A stretch of DNA of 44,234 nt. Source: Pseudomonadota bacterium. Its GTDB lineage: Bacteria; Pseudomonadota; Gammaproteobacteria; Burkholderiales; Thiobacillaceae. Made by a program: the position numbers and the translations under genes. Below, piece by piece: positions 7,539-24,920 of this stretch. The notes beneath the pieces are model-generated. The model worked only from the letters and a program-made list of their open reading frames with translations. It did no database searches and was not told the origin of the DNA. The stretch spans positions 1 to 44,234 of the forward strand of contig JAJXUA010000006.1 of assembly GCA_021783275.1 (NCBI GenBank). Reading direction: 5' to 3'. How positions within the stretch are numbered: position 1 is the first letter of the stretch; each line of letters begins with the position of its first letter.

Positions 7539-8222
7539 TCAAAGTGTGCCTGTGAGGCGGACGCGCTGCGCCGTATCAAGTGAATCGAGCATGTCCTTAA
7601 CAAAACGATCCTGGTTTTGGTAGCCCTTGTTGATATCAGGTGTAATGGACGAAACACGGATGAGCATGCCGTCGGGAATTTTTCCGGTAAGCCCGTAGGA
7701 AAGCTGGGTCAATTTGCGCCCAATTCCCGGCAAAGTGGCCTGATCGCCAATGGTGATCCAGTAGGTGATGGGTTCGACACGGTCACCTTGCGTGGCCTCC
7801 AGCCTTTTGACCTGCAGTTTTCCTGGGCCATACGCGAGCACGTCTTCACCACCTTGACGCACCTGGAAACCTTGGGCGGCATAACAATATTCTGGACGAT
7901 GTACCTGCAAATCCTCTGACACCTGGTTAGCGCCATAGGCAATGGACAGCATAACTCGCTCACCCTTGTCGTTGACGTAGGTGCGCGACAGGGTTTGACC
8001 GTAAATCTTGTCGAGCTGCGCCTGAACGTCAGGACTGACCATGATGGGCACAATGGTCTGATCGATTGTCCAGGTACCAAATTTTGTCGGAATGAGCGTT
8101 TCCAGATTGATCGCCGGTCCCGATGCCGAAACCTGTTGCGTGGGCTTGAGGGCAAGCGCGAGACCCGCCCCGCTGAACATGCAAGCCGCTACAAGTAAAT
8201 GTTTTAAGCTGAATTTAGTCAT
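7539..8222 (-). CDS. epsI: EpsI family protein (exosortase-associated)
   Basis: Adjacent to and overlapping xrt[14 protein letters not shown]..., [29 protein letters not shown] typical of the EpsI domain. Confidence 0.85.
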
Positions 8223-9117
8223 TGGGTGTCTCCAGTTTTGTGTTCTGTTTGCGGTTGGGGAAAACAAATCCCAAGAGTCCATCAAGCATGAACAGGAAAA
8301 GTAATCCGATGACGAATAGCATAATGCCGGCAAAGTCATGCAGGAAACCCTGGCCAGCCTCGTCGCCAAGATGGTAGGTCACCAGGATCAATACCATGAC
8401 ACGCACGACATTGGCAGCGAACGCGATGGGCAGAATGGCGATGATGATAATCAAGTTGCGCGACAAGCTGTCGTGGCGCATCAGGTAGAGATAGAGCAGC
8501 CCCATGGCCGACAGGCTGAACATGGAATGCAGGCCTGAACAGGCATCAGCTACCAGCAGCTGATATGGGCCCACTGTAAGCGTCACACCGCTGCGCGCAA
8601 TGGGATAACCGGCGGCATAGAGCACTTGTTCTGCAATCACCGAGATATATTGCTTGAGTGGCCCGGTTGCCGCGTCGACAATGAAGCCGGGAAGCGGAAT
8701 CATGAAGAACAGGAAGAAAAGCGGAAACCAGAGTGCCTTGGCGGAACGTGCCCCAAGTGTGACAAGCAACATGCCAAGCACCACGGGTAGCTGGGAACCC
8801 ACTTCGAGAAAGACAATCTGCTGGGAACGCCCGACCGCATAGGTAAGCAATCCGAAGATCAGTAGTGCCCAGCCCGGTGTCGCAGCTAATGCGCTGGGCT
8901 TGCTGGGGGCGTCGAAGACCGAGCGTTTGCTCCAGATGAGATAGAGCGTGACGACCAGTATGATAGGCCCGTGCGCGTGGTCATCTGAATTCCACAGACC
9001 GTGGGCAAGTGTCCAGTAGGTAGGTGCATAGAGTGCAATAAATCCAAGGATCACCGGCACCCACATGCCGATCCAGACGCCACTGCCCGGTGTTTTCACT
9101 TGACTGAGTGTATTCAT
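8215..9117 (-). CDS. xrtB: Exosortase B
   Basis: Multipass protein with catalytic Cys (VADACSGLHSMFSLSAMGLLYLYL), Arg (AANVVRVMVLILVTYHLGDEAGQGFLHDFAGIMLF) and His. Confidence 0.9.
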   Translation of the reverse strand: MNTLSQVKTPGSGVWIGMWVPVILGFIALYAPTYWTLAHGLWNSDDHAHGPIILVVTLYLIWSKRSVFDAPSKPSALAATPGWALLIFGLLTYAVGRSQQIVFLEVGSQLPVVLGMLLVTLGARSAKALWFPLFFLFFMIPLPGFIVDAATGPLKQYISVIAEQVLYAAGYPIARSGVTLTVGPYQLLVADACSGLHSMFSLSAMGLLYLYLMRHDSLSRNLIIIIAILPIAFAANVVRVMVLILVTYHLGDEAGQGFLHDFAGIMLFVIGLLFLFMLDGLLGFVFPNRKQNTKLETPND

Positions 9118-9124
9118 GTTCGAG

Positions 9125-10012
9125 TTAATCCAGTACCACAGCGCCCAGTATCTCTGCGCCTGTGTAAATGATACGGTCCTTGAGTTCTGCAAGCGGTGCA
9201 AGACGACTCAGGTTCCTTCGTGCAGCAAGCAGCACCCCGCCTGCAATCGCAACGACCGGCTGAAAATCCGAACCCAGCTCAGACGGCGAAGTAACAATTA
9301 AAACAATATCGAAATCGGCTTGCACTTTTGTGATCACAGTGGCAAATGCAGGGCGCGTCAACAATTCAGCCGGGTTGGGGGGCTGGGATCCCCTCGTCAG
9401 AATTGATAGCGTTCGGAACGGCGAGGCACTTTGCATGCGTATTGACTGGACACGACCCGCCAGCAAATCGGATAAGCCCAAGCCAGGAGACAGCTTGAAC
9501 AATTCATGCAGATTTCCCTGGCGCATATCCGCATCAACAAGCAACACTCTACATCCCATTTGGGCAAACGACACGGCAAGATTGGCCGCCAGATAACTGG
9601 CACCTTCGTTGGGTTTTGTGTCACTAATAGCAAGGAGCTTGTGACCATTTTTGAACCAGCGCAGCAGCAGCTCGGAGCGGACAGAGCGCAAGGCTTCTGC
9701 GACCTTGCCGTGGGGCGCACTCGCTGCGACCAAATCGGGAGAAAAATGCTCGTCCCCTGCCGGGACGAAGGGGTATTCAAACTGCTTCGACAGGGCGAGC
9801 TGGATATCTTCACCACTGACCAGACCGAGTTTTATGGCCGCGTCACCGAAACGTATGTTTTTATCCTGCTGCAGGGCGAGCACCCGTTCCAGATCGGTCT
9901 GCGTAAGTTTGCCCGCATCAAGCAATAGTTTGCCGATATGTGCATCAGCCCGAATTGCCACAGACGCCAACGCAACCCGGTCATCTTCTGCAGCAGATGT
10001 CAGTATGTTCAT
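9125..10012 (-). CDS. epsG: EpsG family chain-length determinant tyrosine-kinase-like ATPase with N-terminal tandem MshEN-like domain
   Basis: N-term HIGKLLLDAGKLTQTDLERVLALQ-QDKNI-RFGDAAIKLGLVSGEDIQLALSKQ; C-term BY-kinase fold with Walker A' VLLVDADMR; Walker A/B degenerate. Confidence 0.85.
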   Translation of the reverse strand: MNILTSAAEDDRVALASVAIRADAHIGKLLLDAGKLTQTDLERVLALQQDKNIRFGDAAIKLGLVSGEDIQLALSKQFEYPFVPAGDEHFSPDLVAASAPHGKVAEALRSVRSELLLRWFKNGHKLLAISDTKPNEGASYLAANLAVSFAQMGCRVLLVDADMRQGNLHELFKLSPGLGLSDLLAGRVQSIRMQSASPFRTLSILTRGSQPPNPAELLTRPAFATVITKVQADFDIVLIVTSPSELGSDFQPVVAIAGGVLLAARRNLSRLAPLAELKDRIIYTGAEILGAVVLD

Positions 10013-10038: not shown

Positions 10039-11460
10039 TTATAGCGAACTCGCCGGCACGGCATGCTTACGCGACCGCAGGAATACTCGGCGACGCTGGA
10101 AGTAGCCCCGTAGCGCAGCCATGATGCGGGATGTACGAGGCACTTCTGCCAATACCGGAATGTCGAGCCAGGCAACAATATCCTGGCCGGTACGCACCCG
10201 CCGATCAAACAACTCGACGATGAGACCAGCACTCAGGCCCAATAGGCCCCCGAGAAAAATACCTATGGCCAAATAAAGAACAATATTTGGGCTGGACGGT
10301 TTGGTAGGCGGAAATCCGGGATTCAACACTGCGATGTCCGTCTGTGTGGACTGCGCTTCCATGCGGCTTTGTCCGTAGCGTTGCAAGGCAGAATCGTAAA
10401 TTTGCTGGGCGTTTGCGACGTCACGCGCGAGCAGGGATGCTTCCTCGCGTTGCTGTTTGAGACCGAGTACCCTGGATTTCTGGCGTTCGAAGGCAGCCGA
10501 GAGATCAGTGAACCGCTGCCGCGATGCATCTGCAGTCGCACCCACACCCCGAGTAGCAGTGCTAAGCTCTTGCGCCAGCTTGGCTTTATAACTTGCCACT
10601 TCGGCTTGCAGTCTCAGATAATCCGGGTGGTTCAAGCCCACGCGCTTGGAAAGCTCGGCAAGCTTACCTTCGCCTTGTGCGACTTGAAGCTTGAGGTTCT
10701 GGACGATCGGACTGTTATTCACTTCCGGAAGATCAGCACTCTGTCCACGACGCGATGCCGCATCGAAAGAAGTGGACTGTGCAGCGACCATTTGACCCGC
10801 AATATCTGCCAAGCGGCGCGTTTCTACGTCAAGACGTTCCTCAGATTCGACGATACCCTTCTCGCGCTGGTAGGCCGTAAGTTTCTGCTGGGCATCGTCC
10901 AGTCTTTCGCGCAACTGCACGATCTGCTGATCAAACCATGCCGCAGTCTGACGAGCAGGCTCAACGCGCAGTTCGAGATTGGTCTCGATGTAAGCCTTGG
11001 CAAATGAATTGACCAGTGCCGCCGCAAACTGCGGATCTGCGCCAGAGAAAGACAATTCGATAGTGCTGGATTCCCGCGAAGGTTCAGCATCTAAACTTTT
11101 AATCAAAACGGACGCAAGCCACTGTTCAATATCACTGTATTCCTTACCGGCCTCCGCGAATTGCTGGCGTGTGGCGGGATTATCCGTGAGCTTGAATTCA
11201 CGGATTACACGACGCGCGACTTGAGTGCTTGTTATGACGTCGATCTGTGTAGCCATATACCCTGGGAAAAGCTGCACGGGAAACAACTGGCCTGAGACAG
11301 GATCCTTGCTTTTGGAATCAATGATGAGTGTGGCGGTAGCGGTGTACTCCCTGGGTGTCAGCACAATAAGCACTGTGGTTACGACGAGTACAAGTGCCAC
11401 GACGCTCAGGATGATCCATTTGCGTGCCTTGATAATAAGCAGGAATTGAGTGAAGTTCAT
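10039..11460 (-). CDS. epsF: EpsF family chain-length determinant (Wzz/GumC-like)
   Basis: N- and C-terminal TM helices, central coiled coil, PxxP-like NPGFPPTKPSSPN before TM2. Confidence 0.88.
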   Translation of the reverse strand: MNFTQFLLIIKARKWIILSVVALVLVVTTVLIVLTPREYTATATLIIDSKSKDPVSGQLFPVQLFPGYMATQIDVITSTQVARRVIREFKLTDNPATRQQFAEAGKEYSDIEQWLASVLIKSLDAEPSRESSTIELSFSGADPQFAAALVNSFAKAYIETNLELRVEPARQTAAWFDQQIVQLRERLDDAQQKLTAYQREKGIVESEERLDVETRRLADIAGQMVAAQSTSFDAASRRGQSADLPEVNNSPIVQNLKLQVAQGEGKLAELSKRVGLNHPDYLRLQAEVASYKAKLAQELSTATRGVGATADASRQRFTDLSAAFERQKSRVLGLKQQREEASLLARDVANAQQIYDSALQRYGQSRMEAQSTQTDIAVLNPGFPPTKPSSPNIVLYLAIGIFLGGLLGLSAGLIVELFDRRVRTGQDIVAWLDIPVLAEVPRTSRIMAALRGYFQRRRVFLRSRKHAVPASSL

Positions 11461-11473
11461 GGTCGTGGTGTTC

Positions 11474-12277
11474 TCAGAACAGGCTTTCCTTGACGTAAAT
11501 CACGTCATCTTTTTTTACGGGCGTATCAAGACTGGCCTTGAACTCAACAAGCTCGCCCTTGGCGTCGCGCCGCTTGATGCGGATGCCGCGCTGCGTTCCA
11601 CGCGGAGTAACCCCGCCGCCCATGGCCAGTGCCTGCACGACGCTCATGTTCTTTTCGAGCCTGAACGAGCCGGGGCGCTGGACTTCGCCGTAAATGAAAA
11701 ACATCGGCTGTCGCGCCACATTGATGATGTCACCATCCTCGATCTGCAGATTGCTGGCTTCGCCTTGTGCGGTAAACAGACTGGGGACATCAATCTCGAT
11801 GTACTCGGTTTTTCCATCACGCACCCGCACCAGGGTCGCCACATCCGCGCCATCGGCAATAATGCCGCCCGCCAGCGCCAGGACATCGGTCACGCGGCTG
11901 CTTTTTTCCAGATTGTATTGCCCGGGACGATTGACACGCCCCAGCACGGAGACCTGCTGGCCGCGGTATTGCACGATGTTGAGTGTCACAAACGGCTCCA
12001 GAATAAAACCGCCCTTGCTTAGCCGCTTGGCGATTTCCTCTTCACCTTGTGCCGGCGTCTGATCCGCGAGCCGGATTTCACCGATCAGCGGGAAGGTGAT
12101 GTTGCCACTCTCGCCAACCCGCGCCTCCGTGGTGAGGTCGGGCTGACCATAAACGGCAATCCGCACCACATCACCCGTACCCATGCGGTATTCGTTATCA
12201 GCCAGCGCTGGCCCTGCCAGCAGGAGTGCACACAACACCAGCAATTTTTGCCAAATACAATTCATCAATCTCTCCAA
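11474..12277 (-). CDS. epsE: EpsE polysaccharide export outer membrane protein (Wza family)
   Basis: Signal peptide; YRMGTGDVVRIAVYGQPDLTTEARVGESGNITFPLIGEI; SLBB repeats. Start may be MNCIWQ at 12265. Confidence 0.9.
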   Translation of the reverse strand: MERLMNCIWQKLLVLCALLLAGPALADNEYRMGTGDVVRIAVYGQPDLTTEARVGESGNITFPLIGEIRLADQTPAQGEEEIAKRLSKGGFILEPFVTLNIVQYRGQQVSVLGRVNRPGQYNLEKSSRVTDVLALAGGIIADGADVATLVRVRDGKTEYIEIDVPSLFTAQGEASNLQIEDGDIINVARQPMFFIYGEVQRPGSFRLEKNMSVVQALAMGGGVTPRGTQRGIRIKRRDAKGELVEFKASLDTPVKKDDVIYVKESLF

Positions 12278-12472: not shown

Positions 12473-13720
12473 TCAAAAGTCCGCCCGTATATTGGCGAAC
12501 AAGGTCTGGTAGTCATAGTCTTCGTTAGTGCGGTTCGAATCTCTTTTACCTGCCAGAATTCCCATATCGAGCGACACGACCGGGTGCGGACGGTAATTGA
12601 GGCTCAGCGAAGAACCAAGGGTTTCATCGGTGCGCGCGGGTTGCGCCGAGGGCACGTCACCTTTGTAATCGCGGCTCAGGTACTCTGCTCCGACATTGAG
12701 TCGCCATTTTTCGCGAAAAGCCCAGACGCCGCTCACGCTGCCTCCTGTACGCAATACGGAGCTGGCGTTGATATCGGTTGCACCCCCCAGCTCCTGGAAG
12801 ACCGCAACATTCACCAGGGTCTTGCTGGTGGCAAACCAGTCGAGCGAGGCACGCCCGGTAAACCCTTCGAAATCCGGGCGCTCCCTGAGCGTGGGCGTGC
12901 CACCAAAATCATCCCGCAGTACGTTCTCGTAGTGCCGGTCCACTCTGCCCGCCTGGCCACGCAGTGTCAATTTCCCCGTCAGCGCCCAGTCAGCCAGCAT
13001 GTTGTATTCGGTTTGCGTGTAGCTGTTGTCGGCAACCTCAAAAAAGAACGGGAAGAAGAAGGCGCTCACGATCTGCGGATTGGGGAACGTCGCGTCGATC
13101 TTGCGTACTTGGGCGCGCAAGCTGCTGCCCTTGGGTGTCTTGTAACCGAGGGTAATGTCGCGTGCCTCCTGATCAACATTCTGCGAGCGCTGCGACGGAG
13201 CGCTGTTGAGGTTCTCGGTGGAATCAATCCCCGCAGAAATTCGCCACCGTGGATGAAACTCCCATTCTGCCCGACCAAAACGCCGTTCCCGGTCAACCTG
13301 GTTGTTGAACTGGTCAATATCATCAAAACTGCTCTGACTGGTGGAGCGTGTTGCCCCGACCGTGCCCGAAAGCCGGTTACCGAGACGCCAGTTCCATCGG
13401 CCTTCCAGGTCTTCGCCGTCAAAATCAAGAAAGGTATTTTCGTTGTAACGAATCAGGGTCTTGGTCAGATTGGCCGTGAATTGCTGTCGCGCGACTTTCC
13501 AGTCCACATTGAGGCCGGCCTCCAGGAGCGCGAAACGATCCTCACGCTGTGTTCCCGGACTGTCATTGTCGTCCAGCCGGAACAGGTTGTTGTCGAAGTA
13601 ATACCCTGCTGACACGAACGGGCGCAGGGTGTCGCCTTCCTTTGCCAGCACCGGCACGCTCAGGCACAGACACACGCCCAGGACCTGCCAGCGCAACCGC
13701 CGGATCACCAGAAACTCCAT
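12473..13720 (-). CDS. epsL: EpsL-like outer-membrane beta-barrel (exosortase B-associated EPS secretion)
   Basis: Signal peptide MEFLVIRRLRWQVLGVCLCLSVPVLAKEG, FVSAGYYFDNNLFRLDD, repeated amphipathic strands, C-terminal aromatic-rich LFANIRADF. Confidence 0.82.
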   Translation of the reverse strand: MEFLVIRRLRWQVLGVCLCLSVPVLAKEGDTLRPFVSAGYYFDNNLFRLDDNDSPGTQREDRFALLEAGLNVDWKVARQQFTANLTKTLIRYNENTFLDFDGEDLEGRWNWRLGNRLSGTVGATRSTSQSSFDDIDQFNNQVDRERRFGRAEWEFHPRWRISAGIDSTENLNSAPSQRSQNVDQEARDITLGYKTPKGSSLRAQVRKIDATFPNPQIVSAFFFPFFFEVADNSYTQTEYNMLADWALTGKLTLRGQAGRVDRHYENVLRDDFGGTPTLRERPDFEGFTGRASLDWFATSKTLVNVAVFQELGGATDINASSVLRTGGSVSGVWAFREKWRLNVGAEYLSRDYKGDVPSAQPARTDETLGSSLSLNYRPHPVVSLDMGILAGKRDSNRTNEDYDYQTLFANIRADF

Positions 13721-14367
13721 TGCCGCGTCATCACCACATACACGCCGAGGCCAAAGTTGGTCATGGCATGGGCAATGATCGGCGCCCACAGGTTGCGCGT
13801 ATGGATGTACAGCCAGCCGTAAGCCAGTCCGGCGATCACTGCAGCAAACCATTGCACATGCGCGGTGGCAAACAGGGCGCTGGCAATCAACAGGGCTTTG
13901 AGACCGATCTGCGCAGGATCCAGCGTCAGGAAGTCCGGCTTCTGTACCCAACGCTGCAGAAACGAGCGCCAGAACAATTCTTCCATCACCGGCACCACCA
14001 GCGCCGCGCCCGCAATGCGAAACGCCACCAGCAGCCAGTCGATCTGGCCCGCAGCGCTGATCGGGTTAAAACCCTCGCCCATTTCGCCGCCGACCAGCAT
14101 CCAGCCGGTATCAAGATTGACCCACAGCACCAGCACGACGATGCCGACGGCCACCGACAGCAGTCCATTCAGTGCCGACAAGCCCCAGCTTTTCAGCTCG
14201 GCGTAATAACGCCACAAAACGACGAGCGCCAGCGCCACCAGACCGGCCTTGACCGGATAGACCCAGCGCACATCAAAATCGGGGGCGTAATCCGCCAGCA
14301 AGCCTTCCAGCGCCAGCAAAGCGATGTACAGGCCGAAGGGCAGGCAGCGAACGAAAATCGGAGACAT
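13705..14367 (-). CDS. CPBP (CAAX) intramembrane metalloprotease, exosortase-associated
   Basis: VPVMEELFWRSFLQRW (EExxxR-like) and ALFATAHVQWFAAVIAGLAYGWLYIHTRNLWAPIIAHAMTNF; overlaps epsL start. Confidence 0.87.
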   Translation of the reverse strand: MSPIFVRCLPFGLYIALLALEGLLADYAPDFDVRWVYPVKAGLVALALVVLWRYYAELKSWGLSALNGLLSVAVGIVVLVLWVNLDTGWMLVGGEMGEGFNPISAAGQIDWLLVAFRIAGAALVVPVMEELFWRSFLQRWVQKPDFLTLDPAQIGLKALLIASALFATAHVQWFAAVIAGLAYGWLYIHTRNLWAPIIAHAMTNFGLGVYVVMTRQWSFW

Positions 14368-14411: not shown

Positions 14412-15401
14412 TTACAAGCCCGAGACGCCCTTGCTGATGGCTTCAGCATCAACATCAGATGCCTCGGCTTTCGGGGTGGTCGGTGCCGGTGTGGACGGTG
14501 TCGGGGCGGCGGCTTCAGGCGCAGCGGCATCCGACGCGGGCGCTTTGCCCGCATCGACAAACTCGCCCAGATATTCGATCTTGGCTGTAGCCTTCAGTGT
14601 ATCCAGCTCAGCCTTCGCGGCTTTTTGCTGCGCCTGCGTTTTCAGCAGATTCGCGATTGCCGGCTTGGCCTGCTCCAGCGTCACGGGCTGATCCTGGGTA
14701 TCGGCCAATACGATGACCAGCAAACCCTCAGGAGTATTGACCACGACGGCTTGTCCCTTGGGCATGGTCGACAGTTTGGGCAGCAGGCTCAAGGGCAACT
14801 GCTCGGCCGGTTTGACGCCCTGTTTAGCCTGGACTTCATATTTTTCGGCTTTCAGCCAAGCCGCAAAATCATTGAGCGTTTTCGACTCTCCCAGCCTGGC
14901 CTGAATCTGGGCCTGTTTTTCTTTGGGCGTCTTGATCGATATCTCTTGCAAGCCATACAGCTTGCGCTTGCTGAAGAGCTCGGGGTGTTCGTTGTAATAC
15001 GCCTGTATTTCGGCATCACTGGGTTCTGCAGGCGTGCCCAGCTTGCGGCCCATGTATGCCTCGGCGAGTATTTGACGGCGGGCGGCGTCCAGTGCCTGAA
15101 CCACCATCGGATCACGATCCAGTTTATCCGCGATCGCTTTTTGCACGACGATTTCCTGATCCACGAGATTCTTGATCACCTGCAGCGAAGCCGCCTTGCT
15201 CTGATCCGGCGTCAAATTGGGAATACGCTGCAAAGCGTAGTTCACTTGATGCACCGTCAACTCCGTATCGTTGACTTTGGCAGCAACTTGAGTAGGTGCT
15301 TTTTCATCTGTGGCGACTTCGTCTTTTTTGTCGCCACAACCCGCTGCCAACGCAGCAATCATGATCGTCAGCAGCCAGGTTTTGGGGTTGATCGTCAGCA
15401 T
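14412..15401 (-). CDS. epsD: EpsD family peptidyl-prolyl cis-trans isomerase lipoprotein
   Basis: Lipobox-like ALAAGCGDKK; SurA/PpiC-like domain; Ala/Pro-rich C-terminal tail. Confidence 0.85.
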   Translation of the reverse strand: MLTINPKTWLLTIMIAALAAGCGDKKDEVATDEKAPTQVAAKVNDTELTVHQVNYALQRIPNLTPDQSKAASLQVIKNLVDQEIVVQKAIADKLDRDPMVVQALDAARRQILAEAYMGRKLGTPAEPSDAEIQAYYNEHPELFSKRKLYGLQEISIKTPKEKQAQIQARLGESKTLNDFAAWLKAEKYEVQAKQGVKPAEQLPLSLLPKLSTMPKGQAVVVNTPEGLLVIVLADTQDQPVTLEQAKPAIANLLKTQAQQKAAKAELDTLKATAKIEYLGEFVDAGKAPASDAAAPEAAAPTPSTPAPTTPKAEASDVDAEAISKGVSGL

Positions 15402-15683: not shown

Positions 15684-17600
15684 TTAGAAGCGTACTGCAA
15701 AACCAGCCGTCACCAGATCAACGTCATAGTCGCTGTCGATGGCATAACGCTCCCACTCGGCGCGGAGATCCAGTCCCTCAATCAGGGTGTAGCTCACGCC
15801 CACCCCATAGTAGAGATCGATTCCGTCATCGCTGGTGTTCAGGCTGGGAACGATGCTGCTGGTCGATCCGATACTGGGATGGACACTCCAGAAATGCGCA
15901 CCCACCTTGCCAAAAACATCAATGTTATCAGTCACCGGAAGCGTCCCCGTGCCGCCGAGAAACCAGGTATCTGCCGCGACCTTAGTGTTGATCCGACCGA
16001 CCGCCGGGGCCGGTGCGGTTACCAGCGTGGTCGCCGTGGCGTCGTTCAGGTTGACATAACCCCCTTCAATACCAAAGTTCGGTGTCAGCTGGTAGCCTGT
16101 GAAAACCTTCCATCCTTCGCTACGCTTATTGACCGCAGTGGTATTTGCCGTTCCCCCTCCCAGCGCCGCTGCAGATTCTGCAATATCACCATTCATGTCC
16201 ACATGGTTGGACTGACCAAAGCCCATACCGATGTAGAAACCAGAAAAGTCATATGGATCGATTTCCACGTCGCCGTAGTCATCCTTGCCGGGCTCAAGCA
16301 CCCAGCCGAGGCTTATGCCAAACAGGTTCTGGTGCATACCAATTTCGACACCACCCACAATATTCTGGTCTCTAGCCACCTGGCTGTTCGGGGCAGCATA
16401 CATATAGGTACCACTAACTTCCAGCGTGTCACTGGCCTTGTAGGTAAAGCCCACCGAATAATGGTGCTCAACTGTGGCCGGGGCCAGGGTATTGAAAGTC
16501 AGTTGATCATCCAGAATCGGGCTTTTACCATAGTTGTAACCTGCGCGCAGCTGGAGGCGATTGTTTACGCCATACTGGACACCGAGTTTGTATACAGTCT
16601 GGTTGACCCAGCCGAAACCCAAGCCTCTGTCTTCACCCAGGCAAAGCGCGGCATCACCAAGGTTTCCACACGGAAAACCTGCCGCAATACCCTGAAACCC
16701 CGGGCCGCTATCGAAACCCGGACCGCGATTCGACACCGCGGCGACCCCCTCGTACTCGATCCGTAACACATCGGCAGCAATCACCAGATTTTTAGCAGGT
16801 TTGAGCGCGATGCCGATTCCGTAGTTCGACGGAATATCGAACCCGCCCTGCTCGGCAAACAAACCTCGGTATTTGTCAAATTTCGTCATGTAACTCTTGG
16901 TTGCATAGGTCAAACCCAAGGTCAACTTGTCATCGAGAAACTCACCCAGCCAACCCAAACGAAGTGCCGCGCCATAGGAATAGTCATAGCCGTTGTTGGT
17001 CAGATTGGCCGGATCAGCCGAAATGGCAGCAAAAGACTGTATCCCATAGGCCCGGAAACGGGTCTCTGCCAGCACGACCGAGGCACCGAAAGCATGGTCG
17101 TCATTCAACTTGTAGGCCAGAGTAACCGGCACCAGCAACTGGAGCAGATCCACGCCTAGCTGATATGTTGAGTTATTCTGGAAGAAATTGGTCGAGTAGT
17201 TCGTGTTCATCCCGCCATTCCCTACAACAGCCACCCCCAGATGGAGTTGCTCGGTCAGCGGCATGGTAAAGCCCATTTCAGGCACAACAAAATATTGCAA
17301 ATCGCTTTCTGAGCTACCGTTAAACCCGAAGAAGGTGGTATCGCCCGCCGGCGTGCCGACAGCCGCGTATCGCTCCGGGTTGAAAATACCGAAACCCATG
17401 TCGCCCCGCATACCCGTGTTTACAGCATTGGCCGGGTTGGCCGCCACCGAGAGTGAATCACGCCCGTAGGCAATCCCCACCCCACCCATGCCCTGGGAGC
17501 GAAAACCGAACCCGGGCAGAAAATAACCGTTTGTGGCATAAGCGGGAAAAGCCGCCATACAAGCCGCCGCCAGCACCGCATGTTTCATGATTTTACGCAT
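15684..17600 (-). CDS. Outer-membrane protein: N-terminal OmpP1/FadL/TodX barrel fused to C-terminal OmpA-like 8-strand barrel
   Basis: Start MRKIMKHAVLAAACMAAFPAYATNGYFLPGFGFRSQGMGGVGIAYGRDSLSVAANPAN (FadL); C-term FSGFYIGMGFGQSN...GWKVFTGYQLTPNFGIEGGYVNLND...VFGKVGAHFW...YYGVGVSYTLIEGLDLRAEWERY...AGFAVRF (OmpA-like barrel). Confidence 0.82.
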   Translation of the reverse strand: MRKIMKHAVLAAACMAAFPAYATNGYFLPGFGFRSQGMGGVGIAYGRDSLSVAANPANAVNTGMRGDMGFGIFNPERYAAVGTPAGDTTFFGFNGSSESDLQYFVVPEMGFTMPLTEQLHLGVAVVGNGGMNTNYSTNFFQNNSTYQLGVDLLQLLVPVTLAYKLNDDHAFGASVVLAETRFRAYGIQSFAAISADPANLTNNGYDYSYGAALRLGWLGEFLDDKLTLGLTYATKSYMTKFDKYRGLFAEQGGFDIPSNYGIGIALKPAKNLVIAADVLRIEYEGVAAVSNRGPGFDSGPGFQGIAAGFPCGNLGDAALCLGEDRGLGFGWVNQTVYKLGVQYGVNNRLQLRAGYNYGKSPILDDQLTFNTLAPATVEHHYSVGFTYKASDTLEVSGTYMYAAPNSQVARDQNIVGGVEIGMHQNLFGISLGWVLEPGKDDYGDVEIDPYDFSGFYIGMGFGQSNHVDMNGDIAESAAALGGGTANTTAVNKRSEGWKVFTGYQLTPNFGIEGGYVNLNDATATTLVTAPAPAVGRINTKVAADTWFLGGTGTLPVTDNIDVFGKVGAHFWSVHPSIGSTSSIVPSLNTSDDGIDLYYGVGVSYTLIEGLDLRAEWERYAIDSDYDVDLVTAGFAVRF

Positions 17601-17630
17601 CAACGCCTCCTTCAATTGGACTAAACATTC

Positions 17631-17647
17631 ACGGGGCTTATCCCCGT
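17631..17647 (-). repeat. Leader hairpin ACGGGG-ATAAG-CCCCGT upstream of FadL-like gene
   Basis: Perfect 6-bp stem about 30 nt upstream of the start codon. Confidence 0.4.
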
Positions 17648-17869
17648 CTTTATTGGCATCAAAAAACCTGGTCGAATTGTACTGTGAACAGAAGCAACAG
17701 ACACCGCCAACCATACAATTTCGGTGGCCGTTGGATTTTTACCACGGCTCCAAGCATAAACGCTTCGCGGCTGACCACTTAGTAAGCTACCCCTGTTCCA
17801 GTGCAGCTCGTACAAGCCCCCACCCCCGCCGAACCACTAATCTCTCAAAACCTCCGCAAGACAGATATA

Positions 17870-20119: not shown

Positions 20120-21502
20120 TCAATACGCGTTCTGATCCCGCCACACCACCACCAGGGTCTTGCCGATGATCATCAGGTCGAACATCAGCGACCAGTTGCG
20201 CATGTAGTCGATGTCGTACTGAACGCGGGCGCGCATTTTGTCGAGGGTTTCGGTTTCGCCGCGCAGGCCGTTGACCTGCGCCCAGCCAGTGATGCCGGGT
20301 TTGACCTTGTGGCGCAGCATGTAGCCCTTGATGAGCTTGCGGTACTGCTCGTTATGGGAAACAGCGTGGGGGCGCGGGCCGACGACGCTCATGCGGCCCT
20401 GCAGCACGTTGATGAACTGCGGCAGTTCGTCGAGCGAGGTTTTGCGGATGAAAGCACCAAACGCAGTGATGCGGCAGTCGGTGCGGCTGGCCTGGTTGAT
20501 GATGCTGCCGTCTTCGCACACGCTCATGGAACGGAATTTGTAGATAAGGATTTCCTGCCCGTCCAGCCCGTAGCGGCGCTGCTTGAAGATGATGGGGCCG
20601 GGCGAGGACAGCTTGACGCCGATGGCCAGGGCTATCAGCAGTGGCCAGATCAGCAGCAGAATGAAACTGGCGATGACGACATCGCTGATGCGCTTGCCGA
20701 TACCGCTGACACCGAGGGTGGGCGATTCGGTGAGCGCCACTACTGGCATGCCCTGGATGTGATCGACTCGCGCCTGGATCAGGTCGGAGACAAAGATATC
20801 CGGTACGAAATACACCGACGCGGTGGTGTCACGCAGGGCATCGAGCAGGCTGAGGGTGCGGGGCTGCGACGCCATCGGCAGGGTGATGTACACCAGATCG
20901 ACGGTGTGGAGATTGACGTACTCCGGGATATCCAACAGTTTGCCCAGCAATTTCTCGGGATCGGTCAGTTCGGTACGCTCGATCAGCCGGTCGTCAAAGA
21001 AGCCGATCACATCCACGCCCAGCGCCCGATCGTTGGCAAAACGCCCGCGCAGTTCGGTGCCCAGATGGCCTGCCCCCACAATAATGGCGCGGCGGCGCCC
21101 GCCTTCCAGCAGCAACAGGCGCGGCAGGATTTTGCGCACCACCCGGTGCGCCAGCCACATGGCCACCGGCGTAATCAGCATCCAGGCCATGACCAGCTCG
21201 GGCGGGAAGAAATCGAGATAGCCGGTGGAATAGCCAAACAGCAGGATCAGGCCGGAGAGGAAAAACCACGGCATGATGACTTCGTTCCAGAATGCGCGCA
21301 GCGTCACCTCGGGCCATTTGCCGGGGAAGGTCAGCGTGAACACGATCAGGGCCAGGATCGGGTACGGCCCCTGGAACGGTTCATGGAAATAAATCGTGCA
21401 GCCGATCAGCACCAGCACGGCCACAAACGGGTCGAGCAGGATTTTGGTCAGGGAAACAACGGAGAGTTGCTGTCGAAACAGCCACTGATTGTGATTGGTC
21501 AT
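20120..21502 (-). CDS. Undecaprenyl-phosphate glucose phosphotransferase (WcaJ/EpsB-like initiating glycosyltransferase)
   Basis: C-term PLLIALAIGVKLSSPGPIIFKQRRYGLDGQEILIYKFRSM...RKTSLDELPQFINVLQGRMSVVGPRPHAVSHNEQYRKLIKGYMLRHKVKPGITGWAQVNGLRGE. Confidence 0.93.
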   Translation of the reverse strand: MTNHNQWLFRQQLSVVSLTKILLDPFVAVLVLIGCTIYFHEPFQGPYPILALIVFTLTFPGKWPEVTLRAFWNEVIMPWFFLSGLILLFGYSTGYLDFFPPELVMAWMLITPVAMWLAHRVVRKILPRLLLLEGGRRRAIIVGAGHLGTELRGRFANDRALGVDVIGFFDDRLIERTELTDPEKLLGKLLDIPEYVNLHTVDLVYITLPMASQPRTLSLLDALRDTTASVYFVPDIFVSDLIQARVDHIQGMPVVALTESPTLGVSGIGKRISDVVIASFILLLIWPLLIALAIGVKLSSPGPIIFKQRRYGLDGQEILIYKFRSMSVCEDGSIINQASRTDCRITAFGAFIRKTSLDELPQFINVLQGRMSVVGPRPHAVSHNEQYRKLIKGYMLRHKVKPGITGWAQVNGLRGETETLDKMRARVQYDIDYMRNWSLMFDLMIIGKTLVVVWRDQNAY

Positions 21503-21783
21503 GGCTCCGGGATCTGGGCACGGATGATTTCTTGTGGTCTTGCTCCGGATCAACTCCGGACCCCCTGCCCCCGATGATGGCAGGGCAGGGGCATTATGGC
21601 GCAAAAATGCCGACTCTGCGCCAAGCTGGATACAAACCCCAGACCAAGCCCGAACCCAATAACAAGTGTATGACTGCCGCGGCTCCCAGCTTAGTGGCTG
21701 ACACACGATCATCTGGCTGGGCAGTGGTCCGCCGCGCCATGCTATGCTCCATGCCACTTTATGGATCTATCGGGATATTCCCT

Positions 21784-22021: not shown

Positions 22022-23599
22022 ATGAAACCTGCGGCCATGCCGCGCCCTGTGACCCGGGGCTATTACGCGTCACACTGGCGCAGTCTCGATTATTTCAACC
22101 TGTATCGTCTGACGCTGGCGGTGGCGCTGGTGTTTACCGGGCTGATTTTCAGCGGCTCGGATGTCTTTCCCGAAACTTCGGGTGAGCGTTTCCGCAGCTA
22201 TGCTTTTGCCTATCTGGTGTGCGCCGCCCTGTTTGTGCTGGGGATACGGGCACGCTGGCCCCGCTTTCAGCTCCAGCTCAGCGCGCACATTCTCACCGAC
22301 ATCATTTTCGTGATGCTGCTGATGGGAACCAGCGCACGTCTGTCCTCCGGGTTGGGCTTGCTGCTGCTGATTTCGATTGCATCGGGCGGGCTGGTCGGCA
22401 GCGGCCGACTGACGCTGCTATATGCCGCACTGGCCTCGATTGCCCTGCTGTTGCAGCACGGTTTCAGTCTGCTGGGTGGGCGCCTCGGTCTGGACAGCTA
22501 TTTCCAGGTGGGTCTGCTGTGTGCCGGTTACTTCGCTATCGGCTGGCTGGCCCATGCCTTGACCCAGCGCGCGCTGCGTTCGGAAACCCTGGCGCTGCTT
22601 CAGGCCGACGAGCTGGCCATGCTGAACCGGATCAACGCGGTGGCGATTGAAAATTCGCCAGACGGCCTGCTGGCGGTGCGCGGCGACGGGGTGATCAGCC
22701 ATGCCAGTCCGCGCGCGCTGGCTTTGCTGGGGGTGCGCGCGACGATCAGTCCGGGCATCAGCCGCCTGGCTGAACTGGCACCAGAATTTGCCGAGGCGCT
22801 GTCGCCGCAATGCCTGCCCGATAAAACCTATCCCTTGAGCATCCCCGGTGTCCAGTTGCGGGTGCGCTGCATTCCGCTGGACACCGCCGACCACAGCCGC
22901 ATCCTGCTACTGGAAGACCAGAGCCAGGCTGATCAGGCGGCCCAACGCCTCAAACTGGCCGCATTGGGGCGGCTGACGGCCAACATTGCCCATGAAATCC
23001 GCAATCCGCTGTCGGCGATCAGCCACGCGGCACAGTTGCTGCGCGAGGAGTCGCAGGACGCCGGACAGATTCGCCTGACCGGGATCATCGACAACAACGC
23101 GCAGCGGCTGGACCGGCTGGTGGAAGAAGTGCTGACCCTCAACCGGCGTGACCGGCTCAACCCCGCAGATTTCAACGCCAGCACGCTAACCGCCCTGATT
23201 GCGGAACTGCGCCAGACTGAAGAAATCCCGGACGCCGCCGTCATAGTGCACATGCCCGATACCCTGCATTTCCGCTTTGATCCCGACCACTTGCGCCAGA
23301 TTATGTGGAACCTGCTGCGCAACGCCTGGCGTTTCAGCCGCCGTCAGCCCGGCAGTATCCGCATCTCGGGCACAACGCTGAACGGCCACGTACACATCGA
23401 TCTCCAGGACGACGGGCCGGGCATCCTTGCCGAACACCGCAGCAAACTGTTTGAACCGTTTTTCACCACCGACGCACAGGGAACCGGGCTGGGACTCTTT
23501 CTCGCACGCGAACTGGCCGAGGCGAACCATGCCATGCTGGCTTACCTGCCGGAATCCACCGGCGGCCATTTCCGCATCAGCCTGCACGAGCGCGCCTGA
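22022..23599 (+). CDS. pilS: PilS-type sensor histidine kinase
   Basis: Six-TM N-terminus, PAS-like region, H box NIAHEIRNPLSAISHAAQLL, HATPase DDGPGILAEHRSKLFEPFFTTDAQGTGLGL; followed by pilR. Confidence 0.88.
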   Translation: MKPAAMPRPVTRGYYASHWRSLDYFNLYRLTLAVALVFTGLIFSGSDVFPETSGERFRSYAFAYLVCAALFVLGIRARWPRFQLQLSAHILTDIIFVMLLMGTSARLSSGLGLLLLISIASGGLVGSGRLTLLYAALASIALLLQHGFSLLGGRLGLDSYFQVGLLCAGYFAIGWLAHALTQRALRSETLALLQADELAMLNRINAVAIENSPDGLLAVRGDGVISHASPRALALLGVRATISPGISRLAELAPEFAEALSPQCLPDKTYPLSIPGVQLRVRCIPLDTADHSRILLLEDQSQADQAAQRLKLAALGRLTANIAHEIRNPLSAISHAAQLLREESQDAGQIRLTGIIDNNAQRLDRLVEEVLTLNRRDRLNPADFNASTLTALIAELRQTEEIPDAAVIVHMPDTLHFRFDPDHLRQIMWNLLRNAWRFSRRQPGSIRISGTTLNGHVHIDLQDDGPGILAEHRSKLFEPFFTTDAQGTGLGLFLARELAEANHAMLAYLPESTGGHFRISLHERA

Positions 23600-23600
23600 C

Positions 23601-24920
23601 ATGGCCACCGGAACGCGCATTCTGCTGGTGGATGACGAGCCCGACCTGCTCGACCTGATGGAGCTGACCCTGGTGAAAATGGGACTGGAGGCCGACCGCG
23701 CCACCAGTGTGGCCGAAGCGCGCGGGCATTTAGCGCAAACCCGTTACGACCTGTGTCTGACGGATATGCGACTGACCGATGGCGAAGGCCTGGAAGTGAT
23801 TGCCATCGCCAGCGCGTTGGCTACACCGGTGCCGGTGGCGGTCATCACCGCATTTGGCAACGCCGGCAATGCGGTCGCCGCGCTCAAGGCGGGCGCGTTC
23901 GATTATCTGGCCAAGCCGGTGGCACTGGATCAACTGCGCACGCTGATCAAGTCGGCGCTGAAAATACCTGCCCTGGCCCAGGGCGACGATCCGACCCGCG
24001 AATTGATTGGCAACTCGCCCGCGATGCAGGATATCCGGGCGCGTATCGTCAAACTTGCGCGCACCCAGGCTCCGGTACACATCACCGGCGAATCGGGTAG
24101 CGGCAAAGAGCTGGCAGCGCGTCTGATTCACCGCTTGGGCAGCCGGGCCGAACAGCCGTTTGTTGCAGTGAATTGCGGCGCGATTCCGGAAACGCTGATG
24201 GAAAGTGAGTTCTTTGGCTATCGCAAAGGGGCTTTTACCGGTGCCGAAACAGACCGCAATGGATTTTTTCAGGCTGCCGACGGGGGCACCCTGTTTCTCG
24301 ACGAAGTGGCCGACCTGCCCCTGTCCATGCAGGTGAAATTGCTGCGCGTGTTGCAGGAAAAAAAAGTACGCAAAGTCGGTGCCACGCAGGAAGACCCGGT
24401 GGATGTGCGCATCGTCAGCGCCACCCATCAGAATTTATCCACGCTGGTGGAGGGCGGGCGCTTTCGCCAGGACCTGTACTACCGCCTCAACGTCATCGAC
24501 CTGCTGATGCCCAGCCTGCGTGAACGGGTGGAAGACATACCCGTCATGGCGCGTTTTCTGCTCGACAAACTGGGCGGCAGCGCCATCAAGCTGGATCGCG
24601 CTGCCGAACAGGCGCTGTGCGCCTACGCTTTCCCCGGCAACGTGCGCGAACTGGAGAACACACTGGAACGCGCCGTTGCCCTGTGTGAAGCCCAGCACAT
24701 CACCTGCGCCGATCTCAGCCTCGCCCCCCCTGCCCTACCTGCATCCGCCCATGTGCCGGGCGGGAAATATCCGCTACAGGATTATCTCGACCAGACCGAG
24801 CGGGTTGCCATTCTCGAAGCACTGGAGCAGACGCGACACAACAAGACTGCGGCCGCGCGCATCCTCGGCGTCACCTTCCGCAGCCTGCGCTATCGCCTGG
24901 AGCGGCTGGGAATCGACTGA
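23601..24920 (+). CDS. pilR: PilR-type sigma54-dependent response regulator
   Basis: Receiver ILLVDDEPDLL, AAA+ GESGSGKELAARLIH, GAFTGA motif (RKGAFTGAETDRNGFF), C-term Fis HTH. Confidence 0.92.
   Translation: MATGTRILLVDDEPDLLDLMELTLVKMGLEADRATSVAEARGHLAQTRYDLCLTDMRLTDGEGLEVIAIASALATPVPVAVITAFGNAGNAVAALKAGAFDYLAKPVALDQLRTLIKSALKIPALAQGDDPTRELIGNSPAMQDIRARIVKLARTQAPVHITGESGSGKELAARLIHRLGSRAEQPFVAVNCGAIPETLMESEFFGYRKGAFTGAETDRNGFFQAADGGTLFLDEVADLPLSMQVKLLRVLQEKKVRKVGATQEDPVDVRIVSATHQNLSTLVEGGRFRQDLYYRLNVIDLLMPSLRERVEDIPVMARFLLDKLGGSAIKLDRAAEQALCAYAFPGNVRELENTLERAVALCEAQHITCADLSLAPPALPASAHVPGGKYPLQDYLDQTERVAILEALEQTRHNKTAAARILGVTFRSLRYRLERLGID

Follow-up and report, generated by a model that had tools for sequence, protein, structure and literature searches.

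The epsG gene of the DNA analysed here (a stretch of 44,234 nucleotides, called the window) encodes a protein with the fold of a BY-kinase but without its catalytic residues. We favour a reading, to which we assign a probability of roughly 0.55, in which EpsG is a BY pseudokinase that scaffolds the polysaccharide co-polymerase EpsF and in which tyrosine phosphorylation is replaced as the switch, probably by c-di-GMP. In canonical BY-kinases, phosphorylation of the tail tyrosines breaks the octamer and a phosphatase restores it. Gene order and one gene fusion suggest EpsF, which has no kinase domain, as the partner of EpsG. EpsG would occupy the cytoplasmic end of EpsF, and its N-terminal MshEN-type domain would bind c-di-GMP. 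This ligand, rather than tyrosine phosphorylation, would then set the assembly or release of an EpsG/EpsF ring, and the state of the ring would act on Wzx/Wzy-dependent exopolysaccharide polymerisation and export.

A sequence-only reading of the same DNA had described a non-catalytic, allosteric chain-length regulator, the word 'allosteric' being a guess. The main feature of the protein, an N-terminal MshE-type c-di-GMP-binding domain, was overlooked in that reading, whose regulator idea therefore gains a concrete ligand. The part of EpsG in chain length rests on the family name.

Degenerate kinase motifs on a BY-kinase fold

The gene and the elements of its product are as follows.

9125..10012, minus strand: epsG, ATG start at 10012, 295 aa; BY-pseudokinase-like protein with an N-terminal c-di-GMP-type domain
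9782..9940, minus strand: MshEN-type c-di-GMP-binding domain, residues 25-77 (NF053729; MshE/PilF profile match)
9128..9712, minus strand: kinase-like SIMIBI/P-loop domain, residues 101-295, without a C-terminal Tyr tail (Foldseek)
9677..9697, minus strand: EALRSVR, the EX2RX2R ring-assembly motif, residues 106-112 (family conservation)
9596..9622, minus strand: degenerate Walker A, DTKPNEGAS, residues 131-139 (translation, family table)
9521..9547, minus strand: Walker A' VLLVDADMR, intact (Asp160, Asp162, Arg164), residues 156-164
9278..9304, minus strand: degenerate Walker B, VLIVTSPSE, residues 237-245 (translation, family table)

The Walker A region reads SDTKPNEGASYLAANLA. Codon GCC at 9599-9601 places Ala138 at the position of the catalytic Lys, and Asn135 replaces the first Gly of the P-loop; a GxxGxGK[ST] motif with the catalytic Lys is accordingly absent from this protein. 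The Walker B region reads DIVLIVTSPSE, with codon GTT at 9293-9295 giving Val240 in place of Asp, and the C-terminus (AEILGAVVLD) carries no Tyr. Of the BY-kinase hallmarks, EpsG retains the unbroken Walker A' DxD and lacks the Lys, the Walker B Asp and the Tyr cluster. The sequence-only reading had these four features right, and the strand, which it had not given, is the minus strand.

An AlphaFold2 model of EpsG (pLDDT 85.6, pTM 0.76) comprises a helical N-domain and a kinase-like domain. In Foldseek searches, the kinase-like domain of the model superposes on the Wzc octamer structure 3la6 at about 1.5 Å over about 200 residues (31% identity), and the closest structural matches are Wzc and CapB, including Wzc K540M and CapAB K55M. 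EpsG thus shares with Wzc, CapB and VpsO the fold, the EX2RX2R motif, the Walker A' and a link to a co-polymerase, whereas it lacks their catalytic Lys, Walker B Asp and Tyr cluster and has an added MshEN domain.

As controls, we used 36 other BY-kinases from the order of the window, 15 of the Wzc type and 21 of the XrtA type (one from the same genome). In all 36, GxGK[ST] and the Walker B Asp are accompanied by a Tyr cluster, with 3-8 Tyr per tail. Judged by these residues, tyrosine kinase activity in EpsG is very unlikely, and the earlier proposal of a non-catalytic protein is well supported. The same genome also encodes a canonical XrtA-associated tyrosine autokinase (L002:1441-2463, contig C152; TIGR03018, 304.7 bits) with GEGKS and a DYYYGYYGSYGK tail, and therefore a true BY-kinase and the putative EpsG pseudokinase coexist.

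Alternatively, the gene could be in early decay and its product inert. The window EpsG has diverged faster than most of its neighbours: its distance ratio (window-to-relatives versus among relatives) is 1.86, compared with 1.13-1.68 for six neighbours with broad sampling. Moreover, 21 of 100 kinase-domain positions that are fixed in 12 relatives have changed in the window EpsG, a larger share than in the MshEN domain (3 of 31). However, XrtB (1.68) and EpsI (1.65) of the same cluster are nearly as fast, with EpsF (1.4), EpsE (1.1) and EpsD (1.3) slower, the 295-codon frame and the operon are intact, and both the EX2RX2R motif and the MshEN glycines are preserved. Codon differences from relatives are dominated by third positions (0.31, 0.20 and 0.61 at positions 1, 2 and 3), with an NG86 dN of about 0.30-0.35 and a dS near saturation. 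By sequence, epsG is intact, under purifying selection and alive, and we consider decay hardly plausible.

Residues kept and lost across the EpsG family

The window EpsG matches the NCBIfam model TIGR03029 (EpsG) with 306.3 bits over model positions 2-272 of 274, which is 7.5 bits short of the curated cut-off of 313.8. In the tree, it groups with 25 other EpsG proteins in a fully supported (SH-aLRT) set. It is placed in EpsG by phylogeny and neighbourhood, although it formally falls below the cut-off. Like TIGR03029 proteins of Methylobacillus-type eps/XrtB loci, it is full-length and has EpsF, EpsE, EpsD, EpsL, EpsI and XrtB as neighbours; it differs from them in its score and in the additional absence of the Walker B Asp. 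NCBIfam calls TIGR03029 a tyrosine kinase, a name for which most members lack the supporting residues, and the annotation 'tyrosine kinase EpsG' is probably wrong for most of them.

Relatives came from profile searches within the surrounding genus, order, class and phylum and from a scan across named genomes, in which the host, a Thiobacillus-like MAG, had Thiobacillus and Hydrogenophilales as its best named relatives. Family counts refer to aligned positions read in 208 distinct EpsG-family proteins. Since Thiobacillus and Oxalobacteraceae are over-represented among these, the counts are not independent. At the Lys position (138), these proteins carry Ala (75), Arg (56), Lys (17), Val (16), Ser (14), Cys (13), Thr (12), Leu (2), Ile (1), Met (1) or His (1). 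A residue other than Lys is therefore the rule (191 of 208), and the loss of Lys is a family trait rather than a peculiarity of the epsG studied here. By parsimony, Lys and non-Lys states have interchanged at least 7-8 times, and column 138 as a whole undergoes 45 changes on the tree against a median of 42 per column, and therefore behaves as an unconstrained site. A Tyr cluster (at least three Tyr) is found in 0 of 208 proteins, and no 15-residue stretch of their tails holds more than two Tyr.

The Walker B position tells a different story, in that the Asp is present in 193 of the 208 proteins and the window EpsG belongs to the remaining 15. On the aligned positions, this loss is the sole unusual step in the window EpsG. 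The sequence-only view of the protein as a peculiar degenerate member of a catalytic family thus fails for the Lys and the Tyr tail and stands for the Walker B Asp. That substitution of the Lys is normal in EpsG is half of what that reading had named as grounds against itself; no biochemically active EpsG was found.

The Val240 codon might be an assembly or sequencing error in the MAG, in which case only the family-typical loss of Lys would be real. The change amounts to a single base (GAT to GTT), and it is known from one MAG, with the nearest EpsG among 56 genomes of the genus being 62% identical. However, codon 240 varies naturally in the 15 proteins mentioned above, Val occurs there in one other EpsG (L219), and nearby residues also differ from those of relatives (S233D, Y234F), which makes an error very improbable. 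Without Asp240, the window EpsG probably also binds Mg-nucleotide less well, because in Wzc this residue belongs to the switching contact between Walker A and Walker B (PMC8517177).

Ser/Thr139 and Asp160 are kept across the family and Asp240 usually is, which suggests that nucleotide still matters in the family. This pattern, together with the Lys or Arg found at position 138 in 73 of 208 proteins, could mean that EpsG is an atypical but active enzyme in which another basic residue does the work of the Walker A Lys, the activity being ATP hydrolysis or phosphorylation of other proteins. We regard this alternative as improbable. A search for a compensating Lys elsewhere yielded no conserved basic position specific to the class with a neutral residue at 138, the Tyr cluster is missing from all 208 proteins, and the Walker B Asp too is lost in the window EpsG.

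EpsG proteins fall into two classes, one with Lys or Arg at 138 and Asp162, the other with a neutral residue at 138 and Asn162 (DANLR); the window EpsG, with Ala138 and Asp162, lies outside both. A basic residue at 138 pairs strongly with Asp162 (66/7 versus 15/120; Fisher, 4e-31). Repeated co-evolution of the two positions was set aside as an explanation: the tree needs only about six changes, the starred branches force one, and an independent-pairs test is without power here. Though strong in counts, the association may reflect a single deep split between clades.

Two further groups of relatives were observed in the survey. Some Thiobacillus genomes encode a second, divergent EpsG (L005, L006, L007 and L009) that is 44-49% identical to that of the window and likewise has Ala at the Lys position (GDGAS), and several genomes carry both. 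Eight proteins (L027, L205, L209, L210, L211, L213, L214 and L215) keep GDGKS and the Walker B Asp without a Tyr cluster; this Lys-keeping, tail-less group comes entirely from one family of the order (f10).

The ring-assembly motif is preserved in a manner that the Lys position is not. Glu106, Arg109 and Arg112 are present in 205, 206 and 208 of the 208 proteins, respectively, and the tree requires two changes at Arg109, none at Arg112 and two at Asp160. EX2RX2R forms half of the BY-kinase octamer interface, and CapAB K55M forms an octamer ring that still binds ADP-Mg (PMC3795738). In VpsO, the K551A variant lacks phosphorylation, is highly oligomeric and over-produces polysaccharide, and losing the required ExxRxxR motif lowers production (PMC7485978). 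With Ala138, no tail and an intact EX2RX2R, EpsG therefore resembles a ring protein that is kinase-dead by nature. Such a protein would need a different switch, for which the MshEN domain is one candidate across the family.

The MshEN-type domain as a candidate switch

Residues 26-77 of EpsG match NF053729 with 42.3 bits (NCBIfam cut-off 38), and an EpsG profile also matches MshE (5htl) and PilF (6f8l). As in MshE, the domain is a 53-residue tandem motif, composed of two 24-residue units (HIGKLL...Q and RFGDAA...Q) with a 5-residue spacer, in which the glycines, the hydrophobic cluster and the Gln at the contacts are retained. The MshE contact set comprises R9, L10, G11, G18, L25, L29, Q32, R38, L39, G40, G47, L54, L58 and Q61, and 13 of these 14 positions in EpsG are identical or exchange one hydrophobic residue for another. 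The exception is R9, which is His25 in EpsG. The two proteins also differ in the partner domain, which is a putative BY-pseudokinase in EpsG and a secretion or pilus ATPase in MshE. Within the EpsG family, Gly27 and Gly56 are invariant (208 of 208 each, no changes on the tree), Gln77 is present in 207 (one change) and the hydrophobic positions are nearly invariant; the position of MshE Leu25 is frequently Ala.

At the Arg9 position, where the window EpsG has His25, most relatives have Ser or Asn and just 19 of 208 have Arg, so c-di-GMP binding could be weak or lost. EpsG could then serve EpsF simply as a scaffold, which is what has been proposed for EcpK and HfsB, and its MshEN-like domain would stabilise the complex without binding c-di-GMP any longer; EcpK functions although no such switch is known for it. 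Against this alternative, the residues that are kept (Gly27, Gly56, Gln77 and the hydrophobic cluster) are those that matter most in MshE, where changing Gly11 abolished binding and changes of Arg9 cost about fivefold at most (PMC5013675). We therefore consider a plain scaffold rather unlikely and c-di-GMP binding by EpsG the better reading. The genome encodes 18 GGDEF domains.

The favoured reading has a close precedent in EcpK (MXAN_7447), a Myxococcus xanthus pseudokinase that binds the kinase-less co-polymerase EpsV and is required for EPS, and HfsB/HfsA of Caulobacter are covered in the same work (PMC12004946). Like EpsG, EcpK and HfsB are stand-alone proteins with a BY-kinase fold, without catalytic residues or a Tyr tail, and each has a kinase-less co-polymerase partner in a Wzx/Wzy pathway. 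However, none of the three Walker motifs is left in EcpK while the Walker A' persists in EpsG, the positively charged C-terminal helix reported in EcpK has no counterpart in EpsG, and EpsG has an added N-terminal MshEN-type domain. The EcpK paper mentions neither EpsG, MshEN nor c-di-GMP (PMC12004946). A Methylobacillus exopolysaccharide protein is already named as an MshEN protein in the 2016 paper, in passages that do not discuss kinase residues (PMC5013675), and a full-text search for literature joining EpsG and MshEN returned one paper, on the pilus ATPase PilF. No experiment on c-di-GMP binding, phosphorylation or binding to EpsF turned up for any EpsG. The 'EpsG' of Herbaspirillum was set aside as irrelevant: it is a glucosyltransferase according to PMC4195743, in which an epsB mutant and an epsG::lacZ reporter were studied.

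BY pseudokinases (EcpK, HfsB) and MshEN domains are thus already known, and what is new is their combination family-wide. By extension, and tentatively, the whole EpsG family of XrtB-type loci may form a c-di-GMP-gated pseudokinase ring on EpsF, with c-di-GMP replacing tyrosine phosphorylation as the PCP-2 switch. Most members would then be naturally occurring equivalents of the Walker A Lys mutants constructed for other systems, which are kinase-dead and hyper-producing. The EcpK work left unsolved how a pseudokinase drives its co-polymerase without phosphorylation, and a built-in c-di-GMP domain offers a concrete, testable answer. EpsG occurs in many Burkholderiales and also in some other proteobacteria. 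If the proposal is true, the main biofilm messenger would be linked directly to polymer assembly.

EpsF and the exopolysaccharide locus

The genes around epsG form a complete-looking XrtB-type Wzx/Wzy exopolysaccharide locus.

7539..8369, minus strand: epsI, B type (NF045609, 288.3 bits); ORF as listed, true start may be downstream
8215..9117, minus strand: xrtB (epsH), exosortase B (TIGR03113, 410.2 bits)
10039..11460, minus strand: epsF, polysaccharide co-polymerase, 473 aa (TIGR03017, 600.2 bits)
11474..12277, minus strand: epsE, OPX export protein (TIGR03028, 363.3 bits)
12473..13951, minus strand: epsL, outer-membrane protein (TIGR03014, 331.5 bits from residue 94); true start downstream
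14412..15401, minus strand: epsD, peptidyl-prolyl isomerase (TIGR02925, 279.6 bits)
20120..21757, minus strand: epsB-type undecaprenyl-phosphate sugar transferase (PF02397, 217.9 bits)

The xrtB gene likely starts with the ATG at 9117, 7 bases past the epsG stop. The locus also encodes two PEP-CTERM proteins, a sulfotransferase and a protein with a Wzy_C domain.

EpsF has no kinase domain by Pfam, and in 198 of 208 loci epsF immediately precedes epsG on the same strand. At one locus (L132; G095, contig C134), EpsF, the MshEN domain and the kinase-like domain occupy a single 881-aa frame. A partnership between EpsG and EpsF is suggested by this gene order and by the one fused ORF. The L132 fusion has a C-terminal extension and Arg at the Walker A Lys position. 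Other long ORFs around EpsG domains were rejected as EpsF fusions, since most are out-of-frame stretches before the true start, and L132 is the sole in-frame case. In most EpsF tails read, the second membrane helix is followed by ...D(I/L)PVL(A/G)x(V/I)..., and the juxtamembrane ...DIPVLAEVP... of the window EpsF resembles the activating element of CapA/Wzc, with which CapA activates CapB (PMC3795738).

No Wzb-type phosphatase was found near EpsG in 75 loci with flanks of up to 10 kb or in 133 with short flanks. This absence was discarded as evidence, given that none was found around 15 Wzc-type kinases with short flanks either, which renders the observation non-discriminating.

Two barrels in a single chain are unusual. 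The frame at 15684-17714 (minus strand) encodes 676 aa with matches to two barrels, FadL/OmpP1 (PF03349) at residues 72-449 and OmpA-type (PF01389) at 493-654, and is either such a two-barrel chain or two genes joined. G+C content is 0.51-0.57 in most 2-kb blocks of positions 1-22000 of the window (with exceptions near 2-8 kb) and about 0.59-0.63 in the remainder, above that of the exopolysaccharide locus, a pattern like that of exchanged loci. Adjoining the locus at 22022-24920 on the plus strand are genes for a PilS-like histidine kinase (PF25323) and a sigma-54 response regulator.
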